A stretch of 64,000 nt of DNA from a virus. A program made the translations under genes and the position numbers. The notes under the pieces are model-generated. The model worked only from the letters and a program-made list of their open reading frames with translations. It was not told where the DNA came from and searched no databases. The stretch covers positions 1 through 64,000 of IMG/VR virus record IMGVR_UViG_3300023174_005299; one strand, 5' to 3'. This document shows positions 22,421-56,566 of the stretch, one piece after another. Numbering within the stretch: the stretch's first letter is position 1; each line of letters begins with the position of its first letter.

Positions 22421-24724
22421 TTATTGCCAGACGCCGCCTTTGTTTTTGTACCAGATTTTAGCCCATCGATTGGCATCTTCAACAAGATGTTGATCAAACC
22501 TACTTGATGCTGCCACCTGTGCCTGTTCCCACAATAATAAATTTGAAGGTTTCAATTGGTTCTCAGTGATGCTTTCATTGGGCACACAGTTGCGTACTTG
22601 TCCGCCATTCTTACCTTTTTTAGTGCCCTCGGCGTGCTTGCCTGGCCAACAACGTGTGTAACCATTGGCGTCTTTTTGACCTTTTTTGATCTCATTGATA
22701 TTGCCATGTGTTTGACACATGCCACAGTCTTCACACACCATTTCCATCTCTGTGCTTTCATTGTGTTTCTTCTTACCTGCACAGTGAGCACGTTGGCTAA
22801 ACCCTTTAGGGTGAGAGCAGTTGATTGAATTTTTATACTTTTGGCTCCAGGCTTCGTTTAGTTCTAATTCACTGTGCGGGAAGGCAATATATGTGTCACC
22901 GTTGACATCGCCTGGACGAATTAAAAATACCCCTGCATCATCATCACCAGATTCATCTTGACCAATTTCCCAACCCATTGAAGCCAATGTTCGTTGTGCT
23001 TTGGCCATTTGTTGCTCTGTGCCCAACCACCATTGTGAGGCCAACTGCTTTAGAATATGTTCTTCATCGGGCTCACGGTCATCACCACCAGGTGGTGCAA
23101 ATTCACTTAATTCTTTTTTTTTAGCAATGGCAGCTTCTTCTACAGCCTTTTTAAACCCCTTGCCTGGTACCCAACCTGCAATGGGCTTGCACTTGCAACT
23201 ATCTCCGGGACATTTGCAGTTTTTCATACCACATTGCATACAGCGTTTTTCTGTGCTTTCGGCTACGCCCTGTTGTGGATCGTTGGGGTTGGTGGTCAAT
23301 ACAAACTCTTTGCCTTTGTTGAACAGTTTAGCCTGCATTGTTAATGCGGCTTTGTTTGCGGCAGCCTTGCCACGGTACGAGTAGGGATTGCCTTGTTTGT
23401 CTCTAATGAGTTTGCCATTGAGACGAATATACCAAGTCTGGGTGTCACGATCTAAGTCATGTCGCTCATCATCTCTTGCGCCACGTGCAAACCCTGTGGT
23501 ATTGGCATGATATTTTTGGCCTGCTTCGCCTAGACCTTGCTCCATTTGTCCCAATGTTTGTTCAACTTGGCGTACCCACCCGCTGACATCACTGCTTCCA
23601 ATTTCTTCTACGTCGCCCACAAAGTCGGCAACTTCATCAATGGCATTTAAAACTTTTTCAGGACCGTACTTGCTCAATAAGTCAACTCGTTGGCTCATGA
23701 TGCGACGTGTGATAGCACCGGCCACTGGACTGTGTTCTTCACCTTCTGCCACACCTTGTTCTTTATCAGTGTCAATCAACGTAAAGTTTTGCATACGCAT
23801 TTTTGCTTGTTGTTTTAATTGTTGCCATTCTTGTTGCTTTGCGGCTTTTTGTTCTGGAGACATAGCGGCATACTCTCTACCACTAATGCGAACCTCGACC
23901 TTTTCTGGGTTGGAGCCTTCTGCCACGCTTTCTTTTTTAGCAGCCAGCTCAGCTCTTTTCTTCATTAATAATGCCAAGCCTGAATTAGGAGCAGGTTCTT
24001 TATTACCATCCTCTGCCACACCTTGCTGGCTATACTTGTCAATCGCTTGGCCAAGCCATAACCTATAAAAACCAGGGCGTTCATTATATGCGCTAGTGCC
24101 GAGTACAGTTATTAATGCGGCTATAGCATCATTTTCTGTTGGGCCTTTCATTTTGGCTGCTATTTTATCAACAAGTGGATCAAATCGTGGTGTATCTTCT
24201 GCCATACCTTGTGTCTGACTCAATGCTTGTTTCTGACGCAATGCATCACGAGCCATTACTGTGTTTTCACGCGAGTTGTCGGGACCAAACCCATGTAATC
24301 TATTGCCGGCAGCAACGCCTGCACCTGTGGCCTTGCTGACATCTTTTGGTGTTGAGGAATAGCCACTTGTTGGGTTTGCACTCCACGCATCCATCTTATC
24401 GTATGCTCTGTTTTGAACTGCACCCAGTGCCGCTCTACCTGCCGGAGTGTTTCCAATTTCACTTAATTGTTCTTCCGCTATACCTTGTTGATCTTTTTGT
24501 AACCATCCGTAAACACTTACTAGGTCACTGGGAAAGTCTGCGTCGTAGTTGAACACAGACATGGCTCTTTTATTACCCAGTGCTGTTACTGCCAAGGGCC
24601 AGGCCGCATCTAGTATTTGATTTTCATCATGGATGTTGGGATTGGCATCAAACACTTGTTTTGCCAGGTCTTCGGCATAGTTGCCGCCACTGTTTGTGTT
24701 TTCAAATAGTTGATTGAGATTCAT
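22421..24724 (-). CDS. modular polyprotein with repeated (G/S)-x-A-E cleavage-like sites
   Basis: A 767-aa mosaic without a recognisable single enzyme. Tetrapeptides ending AE recur at GIAE84, GMAE176, GVAE238, SVAE269, GVAE327 and GVAE489, usually after Gln or Glu and followed by an acidic or small residue. Between them lie unrelated modules: helical bundles, a basic Lys/Gln-rich piece (290-312), a cysteine cluster CMQCGMKNCKCPGDSCKC (495-512), and modules with NCSHPKGFSQRAHC and CEDCGMC. The TAATG overlap couples it to the upstream 183-aa gene. I infer a packaged precursor cut by the prohead protease; no function is established. Confidence 0.7.
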   Translation of the reverse strand: MNLNQLFENTNSGGNYAEDLAKQVFDANPNIHDENQILDAAWPLAVTALGNKRAMSVFNYDADFPSDLVSVYGWLQKDQQGIAEEQLSEIGNTPAGRAALGAVQNRAYDKMDAWSANPTSGYSSTPKDVSKATGAGVAAGNRLHGFGPDNSRENTVMARDALRQKQALSQTQGMAEDTPRFDPLVDKIAAKMKGPTENDAIAALITVLGTSAYNERPGFYRLWLGQAIDKYSQQGVAEDGNKEPAPNSGLALLMKKRAELAAKKESVAEGSNPEKVEVRISGREYAAMSPEQKAAKQQEWQQLKQQAKMRMQNFTLIDTDKEQGVAEGEEHSPVAGAITRRIMSQRVDLLSKYGPEKVLNAIDEVADFVGDVEEIGSSDVSGWVRQVEQTLGQMEQGLGEAGQKYHANTTGFARGARDDERHDLDRDTQTWYIRLNGKLIRDKQGNPYSYRGKAAANKAALTMQAKLFNKGKEFVLTTNPNDPQQGVAESTEKRCMQCGMKNCKCPGDSCKCKPIAGWVPGKGFKKAVEEAAIAKKKELSEFAPPGGDDREPDEEHILKQLASQWWLGTEQQMAKAQRTLASMGWEIGQDESGDDDAGVFLIRPGDVNGDTYIAFPHSELELNEAWSQKYKNSINCSHPKGFSQRAHCAGKKKHNESTEMEMVCEDCGMCQTHGNINEIKKGQKDANGYTRCWPGKHAEGTKKGKNGGQVRNCVPNESITENQLKPSNLLLWEQAQVAASSRFDQHLVEDANRWAKIWYKNKGGVWQ

Positions 24725-25275
24725 TATTTTTCTTCCAAGTAGTCCGCATTGCCTTCGGCCATTTTGCGTCGATTACAGTACATTTCACAAGCCATGACTG
24801 CATGTTCTAAATTTTTAAATTTTGCTGAGTGTGGTCGGTTTTTAATAGATACACGGAACCCATCATCTTCGTTGCCGTGAATCTTGATTTCGTGGCCATC
24901 ATCTGTGGTGATTGTTTTCACAGCAGAACCAAGCATGTCATCCTGCATTTGTTTATTTGATTGTAGTCCAGTGTCATGATTGATTGCACTGGCAACATCC
25001 TGCAAATAGTCGCCCAAGCGTTTTTTGACATTGCTCACAACATCTTCACTGGCCATGGATTCTTCCACACTTTCACCGCCTACAAAATATTTCTTGGCAG
25101 GATGTGCAGGGTCTGTTTTATCTTTTAAAACAGAAATAGAATTTGGTTTAAACAATGCTGGCATCTGCGGCACAGATTTTTGTTGTTTGTTTAGTCCATG
25201 CTTGACATTGGTGGGGGTGACATCACCTTCATTAATGGCATCAATGCGAGAAAGAATTTTTCTAATGTCACTCAT
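24724..25275 (-). CDS. unknown protein of the cargo operon, 183 aa
   Basis: The N-terminus, MSDIRKILSRIDAINEGDV, is a short helix followed by an (I/L)-x-E-type site, which recalls a cleavable targeting leader. The middle contains ESVEES, and the last residues read MAEGNADYLEEK. A compact alpha/beta region (KTITTDDGHEIKIHGNEDDGFRVSI) precedes a Cys-containing helix. It lies between the Dps-like and 767-aa genes with overlapping codons on both sides. Family unknown. Confidence 0.6.
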   Translation of the reverse strand: MSDIRKILSRIDAINEGDVTPTNVKHGLNKQQKSVPQMPALFKPNSISVLKDKTDPAHPAKKYFVGGESVEESMASEDVVSNVKKRLGDYLQDVASAINHDTGLQSNKQMQDDMLGSAVKTITTDDGHEIKIHGNEDDGFRVSIKNRPHSAKFKNLEHAVMACEMYCNRRKMAEGNADYLEEK

Positions 25276-25712
25276 GCTCGATTATCTTTCAGGAAACTAC
25301 GCAACATCCAACCATGCTTGCCATGTGCATCAAGACGCTCGGCCACAAAGTTGGCAATGCCTTGATTGTTTTCTTGCTCAGCTGATGCAAAGCATTGATT
25401 TAACAAATCAATCATGGTGCTGTTGTTGTCAAGTAACTCTTCGATCATCAAACGAGCACGTGGAATCTTTGTTTGTCCTTGGATAACTGATAACTCTAAA
25501 AAACGCTCAAAACTGCCGGGACTGTACTCGTCTAATGTGCGAATGTATTCAGCAATTTTATCAACAACACCATACACCTCACTGTAAAAATCCCCAAAGA
25601 ATTCATGCATTTGAGCAAAGTCTGGACCTTCCACATTCCAGTGAAAGTTTTGTGCTTTGATACTCAGGGCATATTGGGTAGCAAGTAGGGTCTTTAAATC
25701 ATCAGCGAGCAT
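25272..25712 (-). CDS. Dps/ferritin-like protein
   Basis: The 146 aa from ATG 25712 (ribosome-binding site AAAGGA) resemble the Dps family: LATQYALSIKAQNFHWNVEGPDF with the ferroxidase His, then HEFFGDFYSEVYGVVDKIAEYIRTLD supplying the Asp/Glu ligands. Dps proteins form 12-mers that store iron, quench peroxide and coat DNA. Its place inside the cargo operon makes packaging or protection of injected DNA worth considering, though it lacks the MRA tag. Confidence 0.75.
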   Translation of the reverse strand: MLADDLKTLLATQYALSIKAQNFHWNVEGPDFAQMHEFFGDFYSEVYGVVDKIAEYIRTLDEYSPGSFERFLELSVIQGQTKIPRARLMIEELLDNNSTMIDLLNQCFASAEQENNQGIANFVAERLDAHGKHGWMLRSFLKDNRA

Positions 25713-25866
25713 TCTTTTTTCCTTTAGGCCATGCATTTACATAGCTATTTTTATATTTAGTTTTATTGGGTAATCCTGGTCGCGTAATTACCTCGCCCAT
25801 GGGCATGGACACTGTGGCAATTCCACCGCTGACTGTGTTTTCTCTGACAAATTCTCGTGCTCGCAT
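25702..25866 (-). CDS. tagged small protein MRAREF, 54 aa
   Basis: A short gene with ATG 25866 sharing a base with the upstream stop (TAATG). The product begins MRAREFVRENTVSGGIATV, continues MPMGEVITRPG and ends in a basic tail rich in Lys, Asn and Tyr (KTKYKNSYVNAWPKGKKNAR). The first residues match the tag of four other genes here (26161, 26364, 27194, 28077), the strongest argument that this frame is real. It may be little more than the tag plus a DNA-binding tail. Confidence 0.7.
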   Translation of the reverse strand: MRAREFVRENTVSGGIATVSMPMGEVITRPGLPNKTKYKNSYVNAWPKGKKNAR

Positions 25867-26160: not shown

Positions 26161-26367
26161 TTAGCGGAGTTTAATTTCTTTGGGTTGCCCTACTAGTACA
26201 TTGCGATCGTTGTATTGTGCCCGGATAATTCGACGAGCCATTTCAGCATTACGGGCCTGCACAGTGGTGTCTATGATGTTGGTGTATCCCGGCTGTTTTA
26301 GTTTTATTTTTACAGCAAAGGTTTTTAGGCCTGTTTTTTTAGGATTTAAAAAATCTTGTGCTTTCAT
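26161..26367 (-). CDS. tagged small basic protein MKAQDF, 68 aa
   Basis: ATG 26367 overlaps the upstream stop (ATGA), which makes it preferable to a longer frame. The product begins MKAQDFLNPKKTG, matching the shared tag, and continues as a small basic alpha/beta domain (FAVKIKLKQPGY, then ARNAEMARRIIRAQYNDRNV). Such a fold could bind nucleic acid. The family is unknown. Confidence 0.65.
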   Translation of the reverse strand: MKAQDFLNPKKTGLKTFAVKIKLKQPGYTNIIDTTVQARNAEMARRIIRAQYNDRNVLVGQPKEIKLR

Positions 26368-27197
26368 TTTTTCTTGCCCGATTTCATATTGGCGCACCAG
26401 TGATACATCCGAGCCCGTTCGCCTGATGCGTTTTTAGCACGAGCACGTAGATCAGTTACTGACCCATCACAACTGGCACCTGCACGTTTCACACGTCCAG
26501 GACGACTCTTGCCCTTGACCTTGCCATCTGCAAAGTTTTCTTTCATGATCCATGTATCTGGTACTTGTTTATACCGGTCTACCCACATGTCATGCAACTT
26601 CTGACCACTGATGCTGTGAGTTTTTGCAATACGTGTCATTATCTTGTCAATTGTGTCATACACTTGATCATTGCTGGCAGACTGTAATCGTTGTTTGCGA
26701 GCCGTCAATGCCGCTCGTAGTTCTTCCACAGCTTGATTATCTTTGCTGTGGTCCATGTTTTCCGCCACAGTGGATTCCGCGGCAGTACCGATCAAATGCT
26801 TTGCATCGCCTGCCTTGTTCCAGGCCGCCCACATTGCTTGGCCTTGACTTGTTTGATTGTAACTGGGTCGAATATCATTGCCTAACATTTTGGCATACGC
26901 ATACATTGTGGATGCCACACCTTTGTTTCTATATGCTGGGTCAACCTCAGTGCCGCCGCTTTCTAAGTAATCCGCGGATGGATCTCTCTTCCCTCCTGGA
27001 GATCTTACAATTATTTCAAACAGGATATGACCTATTTCCCTATCGCTATCATAGGCCTTAACTGACAATAATGGCTCACCCATAAACATTTCAACTGATG
27101 CTTTGTAAGTATAATCACCAATCTTTTGTGTGTGTCTGAATCTTCGATTAAGAATATCTGTGTTTATTGTTTCAGTAACAAACTCTTGTGCTCTCAT
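26364..27197 (-). CDS. tagged GNAT-like protein with basic C-terminal module
   Basis: The 277 aa start MRAQEFVTETI. Residues about 30-130 look like a GNAT acetyltransferase (YKASVEMFMGEPLL, then EVDPAYRNKGVASTMYAYA with the R-x-x-G-x-A acetyl-CoA loop). STVAEN near 143 is a cleavage-like site. The C-terminal 60 residues are strongly basic (GKVKGKSRPGRVKRAGASC) and end HWCANMKSGKKK, probably a DNA-binding module. Paralogous in layout to the next gene. It overlaps both neighbours. Confidence 0.65.
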   Translation of the reverse strand: MRAQEFVTETINTDILNRRFRHTQKIGDYTYKASVEMFMGEPLLSVKAYDSDREIGHILFEIIVRSPGGKRDPSADYLESGGTEVDPAYRNKGVASTMYAYAKMLGNDIRPSYNQTSQGQAMWAAWNKAGDAKHLIGTAAESTVAENMDHSKDNQAVEELRAALTARKQRLQSASNDQVYDTIDKIMTRIAKTHSISGQKLHDMWVDRYKQVPDTWIMKENFADGKVKGKSRPGRVKRAGASCDGSVTDLRARAKNASGERARMYHWCANMKSGKKK

Positions 27198-28075
27198 GCT
27201 AGTCCAATCTTGCCAGGTGCCATTGGTCCGTCTTTGATTCTTTCACCGCCATCAAAGTAACGTATTTCAATGGGCATGTCCTGCCAGTTTAATCTGTAGG
27301 CAGCCATGATACGATGATTGCCTTCGTTGACCCATGCTTCACCATTGTAGGCCACCATGATATAGGGCAGGTATTCCTGATCGGGATTACTGCCCATGGG
27401 CGGCAACTTGCCTGTGCGTTCCATGTAATCCATCAACCACTTTAAGTCATCTCGACGCACATTGGTTTGTTCGTTGCGCATGCCGGGAAGAGAAGCCAAT
27501 CTCATTACACGCACTCTAGGTGGAGTTCCAACAACACCGGCAGTAGTGCTACCCATATAAGGAACACCGTAGCTGTTGCGGCCTTTGCTTTGAGCATAGT
27601 CTATTTTATCTTGTAACCATTCTTCGTTGGGTACATCTACACTTAACTTGCCTTCTGTTACTGTTTGCTCTTTGATTCGTGGATTTAGGGTTTTTATGTG
27701 TGTAGCATCGCCTTGTTTTTCCCACTTATTCCACATGGCCTGGCCATCATCTGTTTGATTGGTAGAAGGTGATATGTTGGCACCCAGCATACGCATCACA
27801 GCATACATGTTTGCGGCAATACCTTGTCCCTGCCACTCTGGCTCTACATGAGTGCTTAGACTTTCCAATCCCGGACGAGTTTTGTGCTTCCAAAATCCTG
27901 CTTGAGCAATCACTTCGTTGTTTTTGTCAGTCACAGTGACCACCGGGCCAAATCCTTGATCATTTGTTACTTCGTACATGACGCCATTGATTTCCTGACG
28001 GAACTCAAACCCCGGTTGCATCACATCCTGGTTGAATTTTTCTTTGTATTCGCGTAAAAACTCTTGTGCTCTCAT
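27194..28075 (-). CDS. tagged GNAT-like / ParB-like protein
   Basis: The 293 aa start MRAQEFLREYKE. A GNAT-like domain (VEPEWQGQGIAANMYAVM) parallels that of the preceding gene, including the same following segment (ISPSTNQTDDGQAMWNKW versus IRPSYNQTSQGQAMWAAW). After TVTEG near 155 comes a second domain with YLPYIMVAYNGEAWVNEGNHR, the ParB/sulfiredoxin-like pattern used for nucleotide binding or DNA cleavage. The two domains on either side of a TVTE site fit the processed-cargo model. Confidence 0.65.
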   Translation of the reverse strand: MRAQEFLREYKEKFNQDVMQPGFEFRQEINGVMYEVTNDQGFGPVVTVTDKNNEVIAQAGFWKHKTRPGLESLSTHVEPEWQGQGIAANMYAVMRMLGANISPSTNQTDDGQAMWNKWEKQGDATHIKTLNPRIKEQTVTEGKLSVDVPNEEWLQDKIDYAQSKGRNSYGVPYMGSTTAGVVGTPPRVRVMRLASLPGMRNEQTNVRRDDLKWLMDYMERTGKLPPMGSNPDQEYLPYIMVAYNGEAWVNEGNHRIMAAYRLNWQDMPIEIRYFDGGERIKDGPMAPGKIGLA

Positions 28076-28076
28076 A

Positions 28077-29612
28077 TTAGTGGAACATTAAGTAACTGTC
28101 GATCACATCCTTGCGATTGGCTGCACGATCTCCGGCACCGGGCTGTACAATAACATTCCACTTGGGTGCAGGACCCACCGGTGTTGCCAGCATTTGATCG
28201 TAGGTGATAATTGACTTGGGATCAACCTGATATTGCTGTGCAAGACGTTGTTTAAATGTGTCAAGTGCTTCAGGACTGGCAAACTGTGTGCGGCCCTTGG
28301 CGTCTTTGATCAAACTGTTGCCGTTACGTGCAATCAAATCAAAAAACATGTTCTTGGGAACTGTAACACCTTGCTTGACTGTGGCTCCAGGATTTTGTTG
28401 TTTATAGAATTCCACTTTCTTTTCTTCGCCACGTTTACTACCTGATGAGAAGTTCATTGTAAAGTTTGCAGGTGACGCACCTGTGGCAACATCGCCCATC
28501 TTGGTGTAGGCATAGAATTGTACATCAGGATTGGATTTAGCAACATCATAAGCAAGATCCAAGTATTCCTTACTGAAGAAGTCACCAGCATCGTGCCAAC
28601 GCACAACTAGTTGAATACCAGCTTTGTCTGCTTTGGCTTTAATTGTTTTAATCTCTTGATTGACTCTGGCACTGTAACCTTCGGGATCATTCACCAAGAA
28701 ATTTAGTGCTTGCGCCGCTGACATAGAGCTAGCAGGGAACATGACATAGCCACCCTTACGTGCATAGCAGAATAATTGGCAAGCACCAGCACCAGGACAT
28801 GTAGTAATTTCCACAAAGTCACCGGTGTCTTCATCTACAACAATGCCACTCAGCGCCGGCAATGTCAAGTCATAAATGATTTCACCTTCAGTCTTGCTCT
28901 TTTCCATTTTGGCATTGGTACCAAGTATAGCTCGTGGGCGTGTAGTAATTTGACTAGCTAAGTCGTCTAAGTCCCACTCGGTGTTGTTATCGTCTTTGGT
29001 GATGGCTTTGATGTTGCTGCCGTGAATAATTGGGGCAAACTTATCACGCTTGGTCTTTGTACCGGTCTTGATACGATTAGCATAGCCCTGCAATTCATCA
29101 CGTGGTATTGTGCGTTGTGGTGCGTTGAGTTTGATTGCTTCCGCCACACCTTGCTCTTTTTTAACAACAAACGATATTTGTTTGTTTCCAGTGTTGGGAT
29201 CTGTGTATACGCTCTTGAACACTCTACCGCCATGTTGTTTGGCATGAGCAAATGCTTCTTGTTTGTTGTCAAATCTGTTAGTAGGTGGCTTGATCATTGG
29301 GCTGGCTTCTTCGCCTATGCCACGAACAGCACGATCTAATCGCCATCTTTGTTGCGGTCCCAGCAAATGATTGTCTTCGGGTTTGGGACTATGGCCACCG
29401 TAACGACTTGGGTCAGCATGATGTCTTATACCTGTGGCAGTTTTTTCCACCGACCCTAGGTTAACTGGGGAATTATCTGGCGGAGAATTTGGTCCACGAC
29501 GACCACTGTTGGCGTTGCCAGCTTCTTCAACACCTTGATCTTGAATGTTCAATACCTTGACTGGAAATCCACCCAGGGTTGTTTCTTTTAATATAAAATC
29601 GTGAGCTCTCAT
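28077..29612 (-). CDS. tagged gp88-like domain protein
   Basis: The 511 aa start MRAHDFILKETT. The first 160 residues are low-complexity and carry GVEE (about 27-30) and GVAE158 sites. The rest matches, from memory, the phage 'gene product 88' domain: TTCPGAGACQLFCYARKGGY with four clustered cysteines/aromatics, then VRWHDAGDFFSKEYLDLA and FYAYTK. The biochemical activity of that domain is unknown to me. The ATG overlaps the stop of the 1087-aa gene. Confidence 0.65.
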   Translation of the reverse strand: MRAHDFILKETTLGGFPVKVLNIQDQGVEEAGNANSGRRGPNSPPDNSPVNLGSVEKTATGIRHHADPSRYGGHSPKPEDNHLLGPQQRWRLDRAVRGIGEEASPMIKPPTNRFDNKQEAFAHAKQHGGRVFKSVYTDPNTGNKQISFVVKKEQGVAEAIKLNAPQRTIPRDELQGYANRIKTGTKTKRDKFAPIIHGSNIKAITKDDNNTEWDLDDLASQITTRPRAILGTNAKMEKSKTEGEIIYDLTLPALSGIVVDEDTGDFVEITTCPGAGACQLFCYARKGGYVMFPASSMSAAQALNFLVNDPEGYSARVNQEIKTIKAKADKAGIQLVVRWHDAGDFFSKEYLDLAYDVAKSNPDVQFYAYTKMGDVATGASPANFTMNFSSGSKRGEEKKVEFYKQQNPGATVKQGVTVPKNMFFDLIARNGNSLIKDAKGRTQFASPEALDTFKQRLAQQYQVDPKSIITYDQMLATPVGPAPKWNVIVQPGAGDRAANRKDVIDSYLMFH

Positions 29613-32600
29613 TTTGCTTTGATCTCTTTCAGTTGGTTTTGTAGTTTGGTCATCAATAACGGTGGGCTGCCATTATCATCAATTGCCCAACCCAATTTCT
29701 TGGCTTGTCGCTGTGTTTCGCCAGGCTTGATATCAACTGTTAGGCCTGACACATAACGTGGATCGTGCGCCAGTTTGCTGTCAACAGGAATAAAACCGGT
29801 GGCTTCTTTTAACTGAACTGTTTTGGCACGGGCCGCCAGTTTTTCTGGCAAGGTAAATTCTGAATCAGGAGCAACACACACTGTGTCGACGCATTGATTG
29901 AGAACTTCGGTGGGCAAATCAATATAACTCAATGCACCACCATAGGCTTCTTGGAATGGCAAAGCAATGCCCACCAGGGAGTTGGTGAACGTTGGATTCT
30001 GTCCCACTTCACCAGGGCGATTCCCCCTCCAAAGACGAGTCTGACCTGATGCAACTGCCGGTAATTGACTTTGAATTTTGTTTGCTTGAGCAACTAGACT
30101 GCGAATTCGCGGTGTGTTTGCATAGTCATGCCCGTCATGAGTTATTTTGCCTTCTTGCTGTTCGTTTGATCTGACATACACTTTTTGCGGCAGTTGTTTG
30201 TTGTCGTTATTATATTTTGCCGGCTCACTGGATTTTTCTTTGTCAAAATACTTTCGCATCTCTGCTGAACTTGTCTTGGATTTTCTTTCACCGGGGGCCT
30301 TGGGCTTTGTTAAAAATCCAATTACACCTTCATCTGCAATATCTTCCGCTATTGGTTTTATTCTACTCAATTCGTACATGACTTTGTTGCCGGTTTCTGC
30401 ACGGAACGCACGGAAGCCCAAAGCCCTTGCATAACGCTGAACCAAACTGTCATACAGTCTTGCCCTGGTCATTGCTTTCCTTTGATCCTCATCTGGTTTA
30501 ACTTCTTTTGAGGCTGAGAAATATATTTTATTGGGCTTGTATTTTCCTTTTGCACCAGGCACCCTGTCAGAAATAAATGTTTGAACAGCACTTAGCACAG
30601 TGGCAAATACACGCTGTTGATCACCCTCACCTGTCTTTTCTTGACTGTTGTTTCTAAAGAACTCAACACTCCAGGCTTCCTCTTTTGTCTCTTGTTTAAA
30701 TCCCTTGTTAAACATAATGCTTAGAAAAGTTCCGTCATCTAATCGTGCTATTGCGTCTACATCACCGTGGTCACCCTTTTCCCACCGAAGTATTTTATAG
30801 GGTTGGTCCAATGATTCATTTATAGATTCATCAAATCGCCAATTACCAGTAAAAAATGGATCATTAATGACTATCTCGCCATCACTGCCAAGCATAAAAT
30901 TACCGCCATGCAAATCAAGTCTGTATCCCTTTCGGTCAGCAAGCTTATCCAGTTGCTCAATGGTGTTGGCCAACAACAGAAATTGTTGCCGCCCACCAAC
31001 CAATGACATTAGTTTTCCTGTTTCTTGATCTCCGTGGCGTCTTAGGAATTTATTAACTCCACGGTCTGCACCATTGGACTGTATCAAACTTGCCAGTTGC
31101 CCTAGCCTGGAACCAACCAGTATCAACCCAGACTTGCTAAGATCAAACATTCTTTCACAGTTGATCTGCAGATATCGTTTACCTTCAAAGTCAAAAGGTT
31201 CCCAGCCGCCAAACTGTGGCAAAAATGGATTGTTAGGCTTTGCCATGCAGTAATCGGCAAAGTCTTTGAAACTTTGTTGTCCTTGGGATAACTTACCGCC
31301 TGGACCGTAACCGAATATTTTGAGAACAGTTCCGTCGGGTGCTAGATAGGCATCTTGGTCCTGACCTTTGCCCAAAAATGCGTAGCCTTTTTTTACAAGA
31401 ATTGGTTGAATGTTTTTGCTGATCTGAGCTTCGTCTATGCTTTGTTTATCTTCGTCAGTGGTTGATTCGGGCACCGCTTGCCCTTGGCGACGACGCAGAT
31501 CATCTTTCATGCGCTGTAATAATTCTTCGCGAGCACCGGCAGCACCCATGTGCTTGATGGTCTGCGATGCACGCCCTATGGTTTGTATGTCCTTGACTGT
31601 TTGTCCAACACCACTGGTGGTGGCGCAACCAGGTGTGCCAGCTATGCATGCTGCCGCGGCCACGGCTGCTAGTTGGTCTTTGACAGATTCTTCCAATGGA
31701 ATATCTTTAAAAAATTCTGGGTACTGATCCACCCAATGACGCATGATACGGCCTGCCATGGCATTGGCCTCATCTTCGTGGGGTGATCCTGTTTCGCCTG
31801 CATCTACAGGCATGGTGGCCAGTTCATCCTGACGAGCATGCGTGAGTTCGTGTGCTAGAGTACGCAGTATGTCCAAAGGATGTCGGTTACTTACTGCCAG
31901 GGTCACTGAATATGTGTCAGTGTCAAACTGACCAAACGTGCCGTGTCTACGTGTCCACTCAGGATCTTTTTTTATTATAATTTTTGGGGCTTGTTCAATA
32001 CCAAGATATTCCATACAACTGTTTATGAATGGTTGCAGTATTTCTTTAATGTCACGGGGTTGTTGAGCTTCGGCTATGCTTTCGCTGACACCACCGTCAT
32101 CGCCACTACCACCGTCAAGCATGTTCAATGGACCAAAGCTGCCATACACAAATTTGGGTTTTTTGCGTTCTTTGAGACTTAGACTTTGGCTTTTGGCTGC
32201 TTGGCGTGCGGCTGTTAATCGATCCAATGTGCCGTTGTTTCTCAGCACTTTGAATGCTAGATTCTCGGGACTGAATTCACCAGTGTCTGCCAAACCAGCT
32301 TTGCGCATGTCTTTGATTTTGTCAGCAACTTGATCCATGCTGTCAAGGTCGCCACTTGCAATAGCCGAGTCAACTCGGTGTCCTAGATCTTCATACTTGC
32401 TCTTGACACTGATGTCATTGATGCTGGGTTGACTACGTTTGGGTACGCTCAACCATTTGTTGTCGCGAATTGAATATATGCCTTGACTGACATGCGGCTG
32501 TTTGCTGTCTTGCACATACAACTCAATGTCATAAGGGCCAATTTTAAAATTGTACTCATCATTGTATTGATACTTCTTGGCATTGAACAGTTCTTGATAT

Positions 32601-32872
32601 ACAGGATCATCGGGAATGTCTACAACTAGGTGTAGGTCAATGTCGCTGTGTGGGGTATATGTGTAGGCAGCATTGCTGCCGCTCAGTGTTATATCTTTGA
32701 GTGCCAGGTCATCTACACCCAGAAATTCTCGAAAATCATCTGCAATTTTCAGCAGATGATCTCGAACATCCAGGCGTAAATGTTGGTTAGACCCCCATAG
32801 TCGAGGGTTTAACTCTTGGTTAAATTTAATTGCGTCACTGAGACGAAATGATTCTAGTTCGTTGATGTCCAT
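29609..32872 (-). CDS. giant multi-enzyme cargo protein (NTase, metallopeptidase-like, kinase-like, ADP-ribosyltransferase-like)
   Basis: The 1087 aa read as a string of domains. Residues 1-230: nucleotidyltransferase fold with GSN (65-67) and DxD (D77, D79). After SIAE268: a metallopeptidase-like domain with HELTH (341-345). After IDE481: a kinase-like domain with LDLHGGN (652-658) and IND (669-671). Then an unassigned module (690-840), and a C-terminal part with RLWRGNRP, TFTNS and DSEFTLP (946-1009), the R-S-E order of ADP-ribosyltransferases such as T4 Alt. Assignments are by motif only. Confidence 0.65.
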   Translation of the reverse strand: MDINELESFRLSDAIKFNQELNPRLWGSNQHLRLDVRDHLLKIADDFREFLGVDDLALKDITLSGSNAAYTYTPHSDIDLHLVVDIPDDPVYQELFNAKKYQYNDEYNFKIGPYDIELYVQDSKQPHVSQGIYSIRDNKWLSVPKRSQPSINDISVKSKYEDLGHRVDSAIASGDLDSMDQVADKIKDMRKAGLADTGEFSPENLAFKVLRNNGTLDRLTAARQAAKSQSLSLKERKKPKFVYGSFGPLNMLDGGSGDDGGVSESIAEAQQPRDIKEILQPFINSCMEYLGIEQAPKIIIKKDPEWTRRHGTFGQFDTDTYSVTLAVSNRHPLDILRTLAHELTHARQDELATMPVDAGETGSPHEDEANAMAGRIMRHWVDQYPEFFKDIPLEESVKDQLAAVAAAACIAGTPGCATTSGVGQTVKDIQTIGRASQTIKHMGAAGAREELLQRMKDDLRRRQGQAVPESTTDEDKQSIDEAQISKNIQPILVKKGYAFLGKGQDQDAYLAPDGTVLKIFGYGPGGKLSQGQQSFKDFADYCMAKPNNPFLPQFGGWEPFDFEGKRYLQINCERMFDLSKSGLILVGSRLGQLASLIQSNGADRGVNKFLRRHGDQETGKLMSLVGGRQQFLLLANTIEQLDKLADRKGYRLDLHGGNFMLGSDGEIVINDPFFTGNWRFDESINESLDQPYKILRWEKGDHGDVDAIARLDDGTFLSIMFNKGFKQETKEEAWSVEFFRNNSQEKTGEGDQQRVFATVLSAVQTFISDRVPGAKGKYKPNKIYFSASKEVKPDEDQRKAMTRARLYDSLVQRYARALGFRAFRAETGNKVMYELSRIKPIAEDIADEGVIGFLTKPKAPGERKSKTSSAEMRKYFDKEKSSEPAKYNNDNKQLPQKVYVRSNEQQEGKITHDGHDYANTPRIRSLVAQANKIQSQLPAVASGQTRLWRGNRPGEVGQNPTFTNSLVGIALPFQEAYGGALSYIDLPTEVLNQCVDTVCVAPDSEFTLPEKLAARAKTVQLKEATGFIPVDSKLAHDPRYVSGLTVDIKPGETQRQAKKLGWAIDDNGSPPLLMTKLQNQLKEIKAK

Positions 32873-41480: not shown

Positions 41481-42767
41481 ATGAAAAAAATAATTGCATC
41501 TACGATTGTGTACGTTACACTGTTGTCTGGGGCTGTACAAGCACAAACTACAACAACATCAAGCTCGTCCGGTGGCACAACCACAGGTACAAGTACATTA
41601 ATTAATCAAGGTACCTATGACTCCAAGAGCCTAGTGGACACCAACAGCACCAGCAACAGCACCAGCACAGTTACTTCAAACAGCAATACTAATAGCACAA
41701 GTAACAGCAATAGTACTAGTGCTATCAACAGTACCAGCAACAATACCAACAACAACAATAGTACCAGCACCAGTGTGAATACTAACAATAACATTCAAAG
41801 TGGAACTGTCACTAACAATAACAACAATGTCAACAGTGGAACAATGACGTATAATAACAATAACGTCAACAGTGGCACAATGACCTATAATAACAATAAT
41901 GCAAGCACAAGTACCGCTACAAATAACAATAACAATGTTAATACCGGCACAATGACATACAATAACAACAATGTCAGTTCTAGTACTAGCAATAATGTTA
42001 ACACAAATAACAACATTAATACTGGTACAATGACATACAATAACAACAATGTCAATACTAGTACAAGCACTGCTACTAACAATAATAACAATGTTAATAC
42101 TGGTACAATGACATATAATAACAATAATGTCAATGCAAGTACCGCTACCAACAATAACAACAATGTTAATACAAGTACTGCTACTAATAATAATGTTAAT
42201 ACCGGAGATATGACTAATCGTAATATTAATACTTCTACAAGCGCAAGTACTTCAGTTAATAACAATGTTAATCAAAATAACTCAGTTAATACAAATATTC
42301 AGCAAGGTGAATTGACCAACAAAAATATTAATACAACTGAAATAACACAACGAATTATTCAACCTCCTCCAACTGCTGTTGCACCCGCTATGTTGAGTGG
42401 TGGCAATGCCGATTTATGTAGCACCGGAAGTAGTGGCAGTGTTCAAACACAAGTATTTGGTGTAAGTTCAGGTGGCACTATCCGTGATATGAATTGTGAA
42501 CGACTAAAGTTATCTAAGACGCTATATGATATGGGTATGAAAGTAGCCGCAGTAGCTACAATGTGTCAAGACCGTCGTGTGTTTGATGCTATGATAGCCG
42601 CAGGCACACCTTGCCCATACGAAGGCAAGATTGGTGAGCAAGCTAAAGCAAGTTGGGAAGCTAATCCAGATCGTATTCCAAAGATGGATGAGGAAAAGAT
42701 AGATGACACTTATAAGAAAGTTGGCATTGGGGCTGTTCTTGGTCTTATTGTCAACAAAATATTCTAA
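41481..42767 (+). CDS. secreted Asn/Thr-rich repeat protein
   Basis: The 428 aa start with a Sec signal peptide (MKKIIASTIVYVTLLSGAVQA) after an AAGGAG site. Residues 25-290 are built from Asn, Ser and Thr, including five copies of GTMTYNNNN and many NNNNVN steps, the kind of regular pattern that folds as a beta-solenoid or amyloid-like fibre. The C-terminal 130 residues form a conserved-looking domain with cysteines (ADLCSTGSSG, NCERLKLSKTLYDMGMKVAAVATMCQD, AGTPCPYEG). Probably exported to the periplasm or cell surface. Its function is unknown. Confidence 0.75.
   Translation: MKKIIASTIVYVTLLSGAVQAQTTTTSSSSGGTTTGTSTLINQGTYDSKSLVDTNSTSNSTSTVTSNSNTNSTSNSNSTSAINSTSNNTNNNNSTSTSVNTNNNIQSGTVTNNNNNVNSGTMTYNNNNVNSGTMTYNNNNASTSTATNNNNNVNTGTMTYNNNNVSSSTSNNVNTNNNINTGTMTYNNNNVNTSTSTATNNNNNVNTGTMTYNNNNVNASTATNNNNNVNTSTATNNNVNTGDMTNRNINTSTSASTSVNNNVNQNNSVNTNIQQGELTNKNINTTEITQRIIQPPPTAVAPAMLSGGNADLCSTGSSGSVQTQVFGVSSGGTIRDMNCERLKLSKTLYDMGMKVAAVATMCQDRRVFDAMIAAGTPCPYEGKIGEQAKASWEANPDRIPKMDEEKIDDTYKKVGIGAVLGLIVNKIF
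41640..42330 (+). repeat. imperfect repeats encoding Asn-rich units
   Basis: AAC/AAT-rich imperfect repeats, including five copies of the GTMTYNNNN unit near 41837, 41874, 41946, 42024 and 42102. Copies differ mainly at third codon positions, so the protein rather than the DNA repeat is being kept. Confidence 0.8.
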
Positions 42768-45350: not shown

Positions 45351-46051
45351 CTGAAATAATTTACACCCTGATAGTCACACACATCACTATAGTATGTGTC
45401 ACGTTATTCTTGCATCGTGGACAAGCACATCGTGGAATAGAATTTCATCCCGTGCTTGCACACTTTATGCGGGCTTGGCTGTGGCTTACCACCGGCATGG
45501 TTACTCGGCAATGGGTGGCTATTCATCGCAAGCATCACAGACACACCGAATCTGAAGGTGACCCTCATAGTCCACACATTTACGGACTTTGGCGTGTGTT
45601 ATTCAAGGGTGCAGGATTGTATCATAGTGCCAGTAAAGATCAAGAAATGGTTCAACAGTATGGCGCTGGTACTCCTGATGATTGGATTGAACAAAATTTA
45701 TACACTAGATATAGCCGACTGGGCATTGTGCTTATGTTGATAATAAACCTGCTGATATTTGGCTTACCCGGTTTATTAATTTGGGGGATACAAATGATTT
45801 GGATTCCATTCTGGGCCGCAGGTATTATTAATGGTGTTGGACATTGGTGGGGGTATCGTAATGGTGAAACTCGAGATCACAGCAGAAACATTGTTCCTTG
45901 GGATATCATTGTTGGTGGCGAATGCCTGCATAATAACCATCATTTGGATCCTGCTAACCCTCGACTAAGCCGTCGTTGGTTTGAGTTTGATGCGGGCTGG
46001 ATGTGGCTGACTGTGTTTAGAATGTGTAGACTGGCTAAACTAAGAGCGTGA
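45347..46051 (+). CDS. membrane fatty-acid desaturase
   Basis: The 234 aa carry the three histidine boxes of acyl-CoA/acyl-lipid desaturases: HRGQAH (23-28), HRKHH (60-64) and HNNHH (about 200). Hydrophobic helices lie before and between them (LGIVLMLIINLLIFGLPGLLIWG). It is shorter than the usual bacterial enzyme (about 300 aa), mainly at the N-terminus, but all boxes are intact. It would change membrane lipid saturation during infection. Its ATG overlaps the coiled-coil gene stop; its end overlaps the racemase gene end. Confidence 0.85.
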   Translation: MTEIIYTLIVTHITIVCVTLFLHRGQAHRGIEFHPVLAHFMRAWLWLTTGMVTRQWVAIHRKHHRHTESEGDPHSPHIYGLWRVLFKGAGLYHSASKDQEMVQQYGAGTPDDWIEQNLYTRYSRLGIVLMLIINLLIFGLPGLLIWGIQMIWIPFWAAGIINGVGHWWGYRNGETRDHSRNIVPWDIIVGGECLHNNHHLDPANPRLSRRWFEFDAGWMWLTVFRMCRLAKLRA

Positions 46052-46729
46052 TTGTTTGAGAACAGCTTGCACCAGGCTGTCTATGCTGTTGACAATGGGT
46101 GTGTTTTCTTCTTGCGTGATTCTAATAGCCAAGGGTAGTTCTGTGCAACCCAACACAATGGCCTTTGCACCACGATCTATTAGGCTGTGAATCACTTTCA
46201 TCAACAGTAATTGAGACTCCATAATCTTATCTGCTTTGATCAAGTCAATTGCAGGTTGCACAAAAAAATCCATTTCTGCACGGTCTGGAACTATACATTT
46301 CCAGCCCTGTCGTTCCAGGCGGGATTGATAAATCCCATATTCAATTGTGCCTTGTGTGCCCATGATGCCAATGGTGGCATTCTCAAGTTGCAACGCACGT
46401 AATTCGTCAGCAATGCTGTCCACTATGTGAGTGATAGGCACGCCCATTTTGATCATGTCATCATACCAGAAGTGTGCAGAGTTGCAGGGAATAACAATAT
46501 GGTCGCAGCCTACTGTTTTTAATGCCTGTATACCTTGCAGTAACCACAGCAATGGTCGATTATCACCGTTACGCATACTGGTACTGCGGTCTGGGATTCT
46601 TGGTTCGTTCCACAACACAAAAGGTATGTGTTCCTGATCGCAAGTGGCCGGAGTTTGTTGAATTAATCTAGACACAAACTCCGCACTGGCCGCTGGGCCC
46701 ATTCCGCCAAGTATGCCCAGCTTTTTCAT
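46040..46729 (-). CDS. aspartate/glutamate racemase
   Basis: The 229 aa show the aspartate racemase family pattern: LGILGGMGPAASAEF at the start, catalytic C82 in IPCNSAH and C195 in LGCTELPL. These enzymes interconvert L- and D-Asp or Glu without a cofactor. It is the last gene of an operon with an amino-acid binding protein and a symporter, so it may handle the imported amino acid or cell-wall precursors. It overlaps the upstream gene as ATGA. Confidence 0.85.
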   Translation of the reverse strand: MKKLGILGGMGPAASAEFVSRLIQQTPATCDQEHIPFVLWNEPRIPDRSTSMRNGDNRPLLWLLQGIQALKTVGCDHIVIPCNSAHFWYDDMIKMGVPITHIVDSIADELRALQLENATIGIMGTQGTIEYGIYQSRLERQGWKCIVPDRAEMDFFVQPAIDLIKADKIMESQLLLMKVIHSLIDRGAKAIVLGCTELPLAIRITQEENTPIVNSIDSLVQAVLKQSRS

Positions 46730-47331
46730 TTTTTATTGAATAACAAACTGGAAGCAATGCCCATTGCGGTCTGCATCTCTTCTACGTTGTCTGGCGGTTC
46801 TTTCCAGCCCACACTAATCTGTCCTATAAACACACCAGGTTCAGCAGGTACACTGATACGGCACATGTAGTTCACACCATAGTCTCGGTACACAAATCCA
46901 ATGAGACTCTGAGGTTTCAAGTATGGACTGCAGGGAATCTTGCCTGACATTAGGCCAATCACATCATTGTTGTTATTGTAATCTTTGGAAAATAGTCCAA
47001 CTTGCAGACCATCGTGATTCTTATCTCTCCCAGCGCCGCGTGTGATCAAATAAACAACTCGACGAGTATTAATTAATGTGTTTACTTCTAGAATGGCAAT
47101 CATTTCTGCGTTGGTATTCTTCAACAGAAAGTTTGCGGCTTCTTCGTACTTGCCATTCATCTTGGGCAAGGCTTGTTGGGCACGATAAGTTGCCAGGAAG
47201 GCGTCTTTTTCAGTGTAAACAATCCAGCCGCCAAACCCTAGTATGCAAAGTAACACAACCGCAAACAAGCGGAATGGACTTGACCCAATCCATTCCAATA
47301 GTGTTAATAACGTGGCTTTAAGTTGTTCCAC
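46726..47331 (-). CDS. membrane-anchored periplasmic-domain protein
   Basis: The 201 aa start at GTG 47331 and overlap the symporter stop by 14 bases. One transmembrane helix (FRLFAVVLLCILGFGGWIVY) is followed by an external alpha/beta domain with two cysteines (IPCSPYL, YMCRISV) and RGAGRDKNHDGLQVGLF. The layout recalls GAF/PAS-like sensor domains. No family is assigned. It sits between transporter and racemase genes. Confidence 0.6.
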   Translation of the reverse strand: MEQLKATLLTLLEWIGSSPFRLFAVVLLCILGFGGWIVYTEKDAFLATYRAQQALPKMNGKYEEAANFLLKNTNAEMIAILEVNTLINTRRVVYLITRGAGRDKNHDGLQVGLFSKDYNNNNDVIGLMSGKIPCSPYLKPQSLIGFVYRDYGVNYMCRISVPAEPGVFIGQISVGWKEPPDNVEEMQTAMGIASSLLFNKK

Positions 47332-48595
47332 CAGTAGCTACCTCTTTGTCACACACAAATGCTGTGACCGCTACGTTACCGTGTACATGACTTGCTGTGC
47401 GAATCATATCCATTAATGGATCAACTGCAATTAACAATACTAACACAGCTTCACTTGGCAGTTTCAACAAGTCACAAACAACTGCTACAGTAGCAACTGT
47501 TAAGATACCTGTTGTGCCTGCACTTGCCAAGCCTGCTAATATACTGCCAAACAATACAACTAACAATCCAGTAACGCCTAATGGAGCATCATAGATGTTG
47601 GCAATAAACACTGTGGCAATAGCATAATATACAATACTACCAATGCGGTTAACTGTGAAACTCAGTGGAACAGTTAGTTCAACTCCGCCCTTGTCAAAGT
47701 GTAATTTGTGTAGGGCTTCTTGTGCATAAGGGATACATGCTAGACTGCTACGTGAACTAACTGCTACAATCAGCGTTTCTTTAGTTTCACGAATCACGGT
47801 CATTAAACTCAATCCGCTACGTGCCCAAATCACAGCAGTACCTGCGGCTACAACTAATAATCCACCAATAAACTGCTGGAACACAAAGTCAAACATGGTC
47901 ATAAAAATGCCAACACCAACTTTGCCCACTTGACTACTGATCATGGCCAACAATGCTATCGGCAAGAAGTAGTTTAGGAATTTAAAAATACTAATACTTG
48001 CTTGCTGTATGCTTTTTAGAACTTCAACCAACATACGTTGACCTTCTGTTTTCAAGTGCCCAAGTGCAACACCAAATATCAAACAGAATATAACAATCTT
48101 CAAACTCTCACCATTGTTTAAGGTATTGAAGATGTTTTCTGGAATAAACTTCTCTGCCATTTTACCAGCATTAACCGGGGCGGCAGTTGGCATTGGTTCG
48201 TGTAGTGTGATGTTCAAGTCAGTGCCACTGTCCTTGTCATTGACCAGGACGCCAAGCTGTGTTTTCTTCTCAGGTGTCATTTCTGTACCTGTTACAAGCA
48301 CAGTGCCCACACCAATCACAGAGGCCAGGAACATGCTGCTCACAAATCCAATGATAATTTTGCGAATCAATGTTTGACTACCTTCTTTTTGTAGCAAGCC
48401 AATGATGCCCACCAGGATAGTAGCCAACAAGAATGGCAACACAACTACCTTGAGCAAGCTGATGTAGATACTACCAATGCTGTCAAGACCTATACTAAAG
48501 TCTGGCGCATACACACCGGCTAGAATACCCACAATGATTGAACCAAGTATGGTCCACGGGCTTGTTAAAAATGTTTTTAAATGTGTGGTTGTCAT
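47318..48595 (-). CDS. dicarboxylate/amino acid:cation symporter (DAACS family)
   Basis: A 425-aa membrane protein with the GltP/DctA fold. Family hallmarks are the re-entrant loop serines (AVSSRSSLACIPYA), TVNRIGS in place of the sodium-site NMDGT, and the substrate-binding helix with VDPLMDMIRTASHVHGNVAV. It would import C4-dicarboxylates, glutamate or aspartate with protons or sodium. It is translated with an AAGGACC site directly after the binding-protein gene. A full-length host-type transporter is unusual in a phage. Confidence 0.88.
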   Translation of the reverse strand: MTTTHLKTFLTSPWTILGSIIVGILAGVYAPDFSIGLDSIGSIYISLLKVVVLPFLLATILVGIIGLLQKEGSQTLIRKIIIGFVSSMFLASVIGVGTVLVTGTEMTPEKKTQLGVLVNDKDSGTDLNITLHEPMPTAAPVNAGKMAEKFIPENIFNTLNNGESLKIVIFCLIFGVALGHLKTEGQRMLVEVLKSIQQASISIFKFLNYFLPIALLAMISSQVGKVGVGIFMTMFDFVFQQFIGGLLVVAAGTAVIWARSGLSLMTVIRETKETLIVAVSSRSSLACIPYAQEALHKLHFDKGGVELTVPLSFTVNRIGSIVYYAIATVFIANIYDAPLGVTGLLVVLFGSILAGLASAGTTGILTVATVAVVCDLLKLPSEAVLVLLIAVDPLMDMIRTASHVHGNVAVTAFVCDKEVATGGTT

Positions 48596-48604
48596 GCTAG
48601 GTCC

Positions 48605-49423
48605 TTATTTCTTTTCAGCTTTGTATCTGTCCATTAACTTTCGAGTGTCAATGTTGTTGTATTCATTTTTAATAACGTAATTAACAATGCTGAGTAATTG
48701 CGTTGCTTTTGGATTTACAGCAATAGCAATGTTATCTACGCTGTCACTGATTGTAATACTCTTAGTAGTAATTGCCGCATCTGGCTTTTCAAAAGCAATT
48801 TTCTTAATTTCAAATTCATCACGGTAAGCGGCAGCAATGTCGCCACGTGTGACTTTGTCAATGATCACATCCCATTTTTCTTCAGGTTGGAATATGGCGT
48901 TAGGGAAGTTGACACGAGCAAATGTATCATAACTTGAGTTCTTGATAAAACTAATCTTGCCATTGAAATTTCTAATGACTTGATAGACTTCACGACCCTG
49001 GCTGTTTTGACTTAGCCATAGTCTATTGATAACTAAACTCTGTCTTAGTTTAATATAAGGTTCGCTGAACCTAACAACTTGTAAACGTGGACCAGTTACG
49101 GATAGTTTACTAACTGCTATGTCTGCTCGTCCGTCTCTAACTTGTTCTACAACTTCGGCAAAACTTTCGGCATCGCGCCTGAATTGCACCGGAACTCCGA
49201 GCATGACTCCAATACGTCGAGCAATCTCAACGTCAAGACCATGTATTGTATCCTCATCTCCACTGAAGAAGGGAGGATTATCTTTTTTGGTCATTGCTAC
49301 AACAAGCACGTTGGCTTTCTTGATTGCGGCAATGTCGGTGGGTAGTGGTACTGTTGATGTTGGCATTTGTGCCGAAGCAACAGACGCCAGCAATAGCAAT
49401 ACAGAGGTGAATAGTTTTTTCAT
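48605..49423 (-). CDS. amino-acid ABC-type periplasmic binding protein (SBP_bac_3)
   Basis: The 272 aa from ATG 49423 start with a signal peptide (MKKLFTSVLLLLASVASAQ). The mature part has the family pattern GLDVEIARRIGVMLGV, EVVEQVRDGRADIAVSKLSVT and VRFSEPYI, and two alpha/beta lobes. No permease or ATPase gene accompanies it, so it either feeds host transporters or has been adapted. It heads the racemase/symporter operon. Confidence 0.88.
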   Translation of the reverse strand: MKKLFTSVLLLLASVASAQMPTSTVPLPTDIAAIKKANVLVVAMTKKDNPPFFSGDEDTIHGLDVEIARRIGVMLGVPVQFRRDAESFAEVVEQVRDGRADIAVSKLSVTGPRLQVVRFSEPYIKLRQSLVINRLWLSQNSQGREVYQVIRNFNGKISFIKNSSYDTFARVNFPNAIFQPEEKWDVIIDKVTRGDIAAAYRDEFEIKKIAFEKPDAAITTKSITISDSVDNIAIAVNPKATQLLSIVNYVIKNEYNNIDTRKLMDRYKAEKK

Positions 49424-49440
49424 TGAATGTAATCCATAAT

Positions 49441-49459
49441 ATGGGTAGTAAATACCCAT
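49441..49459 (-). promoter_or_regulatory. hairpin in the leader of the binding-protein gene
   Basis: A 7-bp inverted repeat (ATGGGTA / TACCCAT) with a short loop lies between the late-type box and ATG 49423. It could stabilise the message. It contains an in-frame upstream ATG. Confidence 0.35.
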
Positions 49460-55940: not shown

Positions 55941-56566
55941 ATTACTTTTACCCTTATGTCGTTTACTGCGTATTCTTGTGTGTACTCTGGGGGAGGTGCA
56001 TCTATGCCCAAGGCCGCAGCCAGTCGTAGATTGTTGTCCATTACAGGCTGATCATTGTACTTCCACCATGCGGCCAATATGTCTCGATTCTGGCTGCGAA
56101 TGATCTGTGCCATGTTCTTTAAGTCTCGAAAGTACTCATGATAGTCAGGATACGTTATATCAAAATGCCCACATTTTACCCACCAGCCCAGGCATGCGTC
56201 ATCATTTCGATGCACAATTACAATGGGTGTTTCAGGGAATAGTTCGCGCAAATAGTCAATGTGATTTGAGAACACATGACTTTTGATAATACGCACACCC
56301 TTGGATTCTTTAAATTGAAATGGCTCAGCAAATATTTCTTCTAGTTGCTGCCGATTCAATGTGGTCAAATCTTCAGGCAAGGGTGATGCCATGCCCGGGT
56401 CAAAGTAAGCACCCAGGTGCATGAGTTCCATTTTTCCCGATGCGTCATGATAATAGGTCCATTCATCTCTATAGTCTGACCGATCAATGTCGGGACTATA
56501 GTAGATGTTTTTGACTACACTGCTCCATTTACTGCCTGGAGCACCGGCTACAAAGATATATTTCAT
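55937..56566 (-). CDS. sulfotransferase-like protein
   Basis: The 209 aa begin YIFVAGAPGSKWSSVVKNIY, a PAPS-binding-type loop, followed by KGVRIIKSHVFSNHIDYL and TPIVIVHRNDDACLGWW, which correspond to the usual 'K(S/T)H' substrate segment and the R...S 3'-phosphate motif. This is the best sulfotransferase candidate of the group. The acceptor is unknown. Confidence 0.65.
   Translation of the reverse strand: MKYIFVAGAPGSKWSSVVKNIYYSPDIDRSDYRDEWTYYHDASGKMELMHLGAYFDPGMASPLPEDLTTLNRQQLEEIFAEPFQFKESKGVRIIKSHVFSNHIDYLRELFPETPIVIVHRNDDACLGWWVKCGHFDITYPDYHEYFRDLKNMAQIIRSQNRDILAAWWKYNDQPVMDNNLRLAAALGIDAPPPEYTQEYAVNDIRVKVI

Follow-up and report, generated by a model that had tools for sequence, protein, structure and literature searches.

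Internal head proteins and polyvalent proteins of phages

The internal proteins IPI, IPII and IPIII of phage T4 are small, separate proteins of the phage head. The ipII and ipIII products start MKTYQEFIAE/A (the slash marks a cut or candidate cut here and below), and the 10-residue sequence of IPIII, which gp21 cleaves off, targets proteins to the prohead (PMC10229621). In the giant phage SPN3US, sites of the prohead protease were determined by mass spectrometry, with Ser preferred at P1', and in injected head proteins of the SPN3US/phiKZ type it is mainly N-terminal propeptides that are removed (PMC10052503). A separate idea is that of the polyvalent proteins (Iyer, Aravind and colleagues 2017), in which many domains lie in one chain that was proposed to enter the cell along with phage or plasmid DNA by injection; for one of these, P1 DdrB, processing by its own peptidase domain was proposed (PMC5512222).

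The locus described here lies in a stretch of 64,000 nucleotides from a virus ("the window"; positions 1 to 64,000 of IMG/VR record IMGVR_UViG_3300023174_005299) and would join these two ideas, the targeted and protease-trimmed internal head proteins of T4 and the large polyvalent proteins. Its 1087-amino acid product, P0001, is best accounted for as a polyprotein of internal head proteins that is packaged, cut by an S77 prohead protease at x-x-Glu sites and injected, a reading to which a probability of roughly three in four is assigned. As in T4, starts of the type QEF[IV]xE/ are found, here on window neighbors and on stand-alone versions of the modules, and an S77 protease is encoded in the closest relative; P0001 itself, unlike the T4 proteins, chains enzyme-like modules behind a start (MDINELESF, or MDINE/LESF) that is not of the QEF type. 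Injection and cleavage by a prohead protease would be in common with the SPN3US/phiKZ-type head proteins, for which Ser is preferred at P1', whereas the candidate sites in P0001 separate enzyme modules. With polyvalent proteins P0001 has in common a long chain in which domains of five kinds (nucleotidyltransferase, peptidase, kinase, GNAT-like and ART-like) are shuffled; it differs in its x-x-Glu borders, in the separate versions with T4-type targeting, and in that a Pfam scan found no LPD-type domain (Large Polyvalent protein-associated Domain) in it, whereas LPD39 and LPD1 are carried by L057 and L064, the two proteins with its ART-like module that were scanned. Not every polyvalent protein has an LPD domain; because P0001 has none, it is classed only as working like polyvalent proteins.

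An initial annotation of the window had proposed an injected multi-enzyme precursor as a new version of a T4 strategy. The architecture and the protease-like sites hold, as does the strategy by comparison (T4-type group, gp21-type protease, capsid-targeting neighbors); the many-domain injected chain is already known from polyvalent proteins. The protease punctuation appears to be new, and so does its pairing with capsid targeting of the T4 type; no description of capsid-targeted, prohead-protease-punctuated chains of polyvalent type was found in the open-access literature. If the reading is right, x-x-Glu sites would provide a sequence rule for cargo lists of jumbo phages, each unit between two sites being an injected protein, and many unnamed phage proteins would become testable candidates for host takeover or counter-defence.

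The P0001 gene and its relatives

P0001 is read from an ATG on the minus strand (32872..29609), and the plus strand across the same span is rich in stops; the initial annotation had given these coordinates correctly, the coding strand being minus. All of the motifs that it listed were found in the translation (GSN/SDIDLH at 65-81, HELTH at 341, LDLHGGN at 652, IND at 669, RLWRG at 946, TFTNS at 961, DSEFTLP at 1003), and, judged by their invariance across aligned relatives, the motifs exceed chance. The layout of the protein is as follows.

29609..32872, minus strand: entire ORF, 1087 aa; proposed head-packaged polyprotein, 39 relatives in IMG/VR
32168..32833, minus strand: module 1 (aa 14-235), Pol-beta-type nucleotidyltransferase; phrog_36119, E=1e-43
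32069..32089, minus strand: linker with candidate cut sites VSE/S (264) and SIAE/A (268); pLDDT <50 at 249-271
31703..32059, minus strand: module 2 (aa 272-390), zincin-like metallopeptidase, HELTH 341-345 and E366; from conservation and model
31613..31696, minus strand: candidate cut site PLEE/S (395), then signal-peptide-like SVKDQLAAVAAAACIAGTPGCAT (aa 396-418); same arrangement in relatives
30830..31429, minus strand: module 3 (aa 482-681), protein-kinase-like, T7 gp0.7-type, behind SIDE/A (481); phrog_15752, E=3e-5
30344..30814, minus strand: module 4 (aa 687-843), GNAT-like alpha/beta, between SINE/S (686) and PIAE/D (843); phrog_16075 / phrog_6387
29810..30160, minus strand: module 5 (aa 905-1021), ART-like, with invariant R946, R949, T963 and E1005, ending at QLKE/A (1023); from conservation and fold
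29612..29803, minus strand: C-terminal 64-aa tail (aa 1024-1087), ATGFIP...DIKPGETQRQAKK; kept in most relatives directly behind E/

The source record is a fragment of 72,511 bases from a virus known from metagenomes only, a giant freshwater virus of bacteria in the T4-type jumbo phage group. Among the 39 related loci in IMG/VR, the closest relative of P0001 (L001; 91% identity in the best segment, 79% over the alignment) is on a contig of 352,754 bases whose major capsid protein shares 62-66% identity with its counterparts in jumbo phages, among them Pseudomonas phage PA5oct, Vibrio phage 2.275.O and Sinorhizobium phage Phosso. Two units, the nucleotidyltransferase and the peptidase, are retained in the relatives, as is the short tail; the part downstream varies: their ORFs reach about 2560 aa and hold amidoligase, deaminase, lipase-like, ParB-like and GNAT modules in varying order. 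On this comparison of sequences, P0001 is a modular precursor.

Searching PDB sequences with P0001 yielded nothing above noise. At pTM 0.33 the full-length model is a weak one; it was folded on an alignment (A4) that put the C-terminal tails of most relatives on module 4, producing noise there; an alignment including ART and kinase fragments (A3) placed these fragments wrongly, on the N-terminus, and was left out of the folding. Foldseek searches with the full-length model and with the ART-like module returned no match with E<0.001.

Enzyme-like modules

The four enzyme-like domains proposed in the initial annotation are all present, and a fifth, GNAT-like unit (684-843) and the signal-like segment (396-418) had been missed. 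Its nucleotidyltransferase call is upheld by the PHROG match of module 1, by the GS and SDID motifs, which are invariant in 19 aligned relatives, and by fold, the best Foldseek matches being AAD(9), AadA and HI0073; PF01909 is matched weakly, below the cut-off in P0001 and above it in a relative (L005). The metallopeptidase call is likewise borne out, with HExxH and the downstream E366 invariant in 19 aligned relatives and the module modeled with high confidence (pLDDT mostly 85-96). This peptidase is also found as a gene of its own, at 5507-5881 of L055 with the start MKIVEILVE/G..., and gp332 of the cultured cyanophage B23 is a stand-alone homologue starting MNYKQFLRE/STEKQ....

The kinase reading of module 3 agrees with its PHROG match, which extends over 200 aa to the T7 gp0.7 kinase, and with the K, D, N and D residues invariant in three copies (P0001 and divergent copies in L055 and L078, from other phages); the kinase part of the full-length model was built on essentially two sequences. 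In T7 the gp0.7 kinase is expressed early and as a protein of its own, whereas module 3 is internal to a chain. For module 4, Foldseek with the full-length model lists GNAT structures among its matches; the part of the query that they cover is not shown in the output, and we infer that it is module 4.

The ART-like module

Module 5, of about 120 aa, occurs in 17 loci at 51-62% identity, and full-length copies lie mostly within proteins of 1600-2900 aa in otherwise unrelated phages. It is missing in the closest relative, which has VVE/STGYIP instead, and in L055 it is inserted exactly between LKE/N and VKE/N in a homologue of the window gene at 26364-27197. Residues R946, W948-E955 (WRGNRPGE), F962-T963 and E1005-F1006 are invariant in 11 aligned copies. 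The initial annotation had made its reading depend on catalytic residues being kept in homologues, and R946, R949, T963 and E1005 are indeed kept in all 11; its R-S-E arrangement has to be replaced by R-T-E, with S965 (the S of TFTNS) being S or D across copies and T963, two residues earlier, invariant.

Even at E=10, this module matched nothing in Pfam and nothing convincingly in PHROG, and a profile search against PDB sequences gave only noise. Its AlphaFold (AF2) model has pLDDT 85 and pTM 0.76, and 49 of the 50 best PDB matches in Foldseek belong to the ART superfamily (KptA/Tpt1, SAIP, PARPs), at weak values (best E=0.045). Over all Foldseek searches with the module, the best E values were 0.022-0.045 with TM about 0.37-0.41, and the second viral match is annotated as an ADP-ribosyltransferase. 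The fold comparison proposed in the initial annotation thus points to the superfamily, weakly, and not to Alt: Alt/VIP2 structures are absent from the 50 best PDB matches listed, and BLASTP of P0001 against T4 Alt gave a best E of 0.14, in an unrelated segment. The designation "Alt-like" was therefore rejected, there being no sequence similarity to T4 Alt, an invariant Thr rather than Ser, and fold matches to KptA, SAIP and PARPs. T4 Alt is an injected, head-packaged ADP-ribosyltransferase, and module 5 would resemble it in this respect if read correctly, although it is much smaller. Taking the conserved residues and the predicted fold together, module 5 probably belongs to the ART superfamily, with an R-T-E triad, and is not a relative of Alt, and that it is a real ADP-ribosyltransferase is plausible.

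Module 5 might instead be some other small alpha/beta domain in which the R...T...E pattern is coincidental, an interpretation that concerns this module alone and is compatible with the polyprotein account. The absence of convincing Pfam and PHROG matches, the Foldseek values and a length below that of typical ARTs would fit such a domain, whereas the ART-superfamily membership of 49 of the 50 best PDB matches, the annotated viral match and the invariance of R, T and E in 11 copies do not, and it is considered unlikely.

Candidate cut sites at module borders

Candidate sites were defined by the pattern [ILVMF]-x-E/ followed by a small residue. Nine linker sites of the form hydrophobic-x-E/[SAD] are present in P0001 (264, 268, 395, 469, 481, 682, 686, 843 and 1023), all at pLDDT <50, of which site 1023 counts for less because region 878-1051 had no useful alignment in the full-length model; a tenth match, FQE/A (975), lies inside the ART-like module and was not counted as a border. 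Among them are the IAE/IDE-like sites picked out by the initial annotation (SIAE/A at 268, SIDE/A at 481 and PIAE/D at 843).

The position of such sites was evaluated by comparing stand-alone and fused versions of modules. Genes with starts like capsid-targeting sequences were collected, the peptide was removed up to its Glu, and the remaining module was sought inside other proteins. In 58 distinct stand-alone/fused pairs, which represent about eight module families and so are not independent events, the fused module is directly preceded by Glu in 41 and by the full hydrophobic-x-Glu in 37, against a background per position of 7.1% and 2.2%, respectively. Similarly, x-x-Glu was found near 291 of 534 homology or module starts, compared with 143 +/- 10 for random positions. 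Module 4 illustrates the correspondence: P0001 has SINE/SLDQPYKILRWEKGD at this border, and a separate gene in L003, encoding a 95%-identical stand-alone copy, has MRSQEFITE/SLDHPYKILRWEKGD. By such alignments, module borders coincide with hydrophobic-x-Glu sites to the residue.

Capsid-targeting starts and the prohead protease

Genes adjacent to that of P0001, in the same direction, have starts resembling capsid-targeting sequences (CTS) or carry sites of the same type.

28077..29612, minus strand: next gene, GP88-domain protein, start MRAHDFILKE/ (T4 CTS-like); PF17338, 1e-32
27194..28075, minus strand: GNAT-like gene, start MRAQEFLRE/, second module behind TVTE/GKLSVDVP; by sequence comparison
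26364..27197, minus strand: GNAT-like gene, start MRAQEFVTE/, modules behind STVAE/NMDHSK and MKE/NFADG; by sequence comparison
22421..24724, minus strand: 767-aa protein with repeated GVAE-type sites, WSQKYK module behind LELNE/; by sequence comparison

The N-terminal region of the GP88-domain protein is fused to the polyprotein in L004, and the second module of gene 27194..28075 stands alone behind MRAQEFITE/ in L001. A DNA pattern search for capsid-targeting starts located four in the window's record, at 26350-29612, and four clustered beside the polyprotein gene of a relative. Apart from short cyanophage modules, the window neighbors have no close matches in cultured phages. The gene at 26161-26397 probably starts at the ATG at 26367 (MKAQDFLNPKK, of capsid-targeting type) and not at the GTG at 26397. 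A correspondence between a cytidylyltransferase neighbor and the cyanophage virion protein T4-GC190 (PMC3037559) was considered and dropped, the matches in phages being weak and none being in marine cyanophages.

Six of 12 related records encode an S77 (gp21-type) prohead protease; one of the six is the contig of 352 kb that carries the closest relative, where the protease (L049, 6563-7189; E=4.5e-27) adjoins portal, scaffold and capsid genes; the portal and scaffold names are from position and T4 gene order, whereas the protease was checked by profile and the capsid by similarity search. The gene was not found in the window's own record of 72.5 kb, which is a fragment. The N-termini of the capsid precursors of five contigs have YLKE/NAS in common, a site of the same type as those at the module borders, and we infer that it is the cut site of the capsid precursor.

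Signal-like segments behind candidate sites

At site 395, P0001 reads PLEE/SVKDQLAAVAAAACIAGTPGC; the context of the Cys is not a canonical lipobox, whereas that of the equivalent in L003 (SLVGC) is. Chains of the relatives hold Tat-like and Sec-like segments deep inside, and internal Tat-like segments (SRRGFLKG or SRRNFVRG with a hydrophobic run) lie right behind x-x-Glu in L003 (10077-11285), L013 (2843-4411), L026 (10731-13394), L032 (4974-8531) and L033 (3958-5010). Eleven signal-like segments were detected in the protein set with no reference to cut sites, representing perhaps five independent module types. The nearest upstream hydrophobic-x-Glu ends two to three residues before the signal motif in 10 of these and eight residues before it in the other; the background chance of finding hydrophobic-x-Glu within six residues is 11.5%. 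It is tentatively suggested, as a possibility at less than even odds, that the head protease also uncovers hidden export signals, such that cutting would make Tat- or Sec-like segments into true N-termini and host export would then carry the injected proteins to the periplasm or membrane. No description of hidden export signals of this kind was found in the open-access literature, and, if real, they would give phages a new way of delivering proteins to the periplasm as infection begins.

Proposed processing of P0001 and alternatives

Comparison of sequences provides the modules and their conservation, the coincidence of borders with x-x-Glu, the stand-alone versions behind targeting N-termini and the protease of the closest relative; the cutting, packaging, injection, catalytic activities and targets proposed for the P0001 units are extrapolated from these. 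P0001 would be made together with the structural proteins and drawn into the prohead core, where the S77 protease would cut it at [ILVMF]-x-E/ sites followed by small residues. The freed units (nucleotidyltransferase, metallopeptidase, signal-bearing segment, kinase, GNAT-like and ART-like) would remain in the head, enter the next host with the DNA and may modify host macromolecules early in infection.

P0001 could also be a classical polyvalent protein, either left uncut, like the N4 virion RNA polymerase, or cut by its own metallopeptidase, with x-x-Glu marking only flexible linkers. Each of the five catalytic classes given for polyvalent proteins is represented in the chain, among them a zincin peptidase of the kind for which autoprocessing was suggested (PMC5512222), and relatives of its ART-like module are in proteins with LPD domains. 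Flexible linkers would not explain, however, why borders match hydrophobic-x-Glu to the residue, or why capsid-targeting peptides end in this motif too and the presumed site of the capsid precursor looks like it; the peptidase, moreover, also stands alone with a targeting-like start of its own, which argues that it is one cargo among others. This alternative is held to be improbable. Less probable still, and given little weight, is that P0001 is a multifunctional enzyme expressed in the infected cell and never packaged. Capsid-targeting-like starts, both on the adjacent co-directional genes and on the stand-alone modules, speak against it, even though homologues of the nucleotidyltransferase are ordinary genes in cyanophages and in Maribacter and Lak phages, and no T4-type late promoter TATAAATA was found upstream of the P0001 gene (the two matches in the window are at chance level).

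Other genes of the window and of related phages

A Dps/ferritin-like gene (PF00210; window 25272-25736) lies within the capsid-targeted cluster, as it does in L055, and its product may be packaged with DNA. In the cyanophage S-SM2 (L081, 2683-5234), proteins adjoining the terminase genes have modules in common with the freshwater cluster (KYKKSIDCSNPKGFSQKAHC, VKSRYSVWPSAYASGALVKCRKVGAKNWG), and one marine cyanophage protein at this locus starts MKTLKQFLKE/, which suggests that the module pool extends to cultured phages. Elsewhere in the window, aspartate-racemase-like, dicarboxylate/glutamate symporter-like and periplasmic binding-protein-like genes, recognized by reading the sequences, are side by side at 46040-49459 and, together with a TctC-like gene at 56563-57549, form an unusual set for uptake of amino acids or organic acids. 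Finally, a 428-aa protein encoded at 41481-42767 has a signal-like start and long Asn-rich repeat runs (NNNNVNTGTMTYNNNN).
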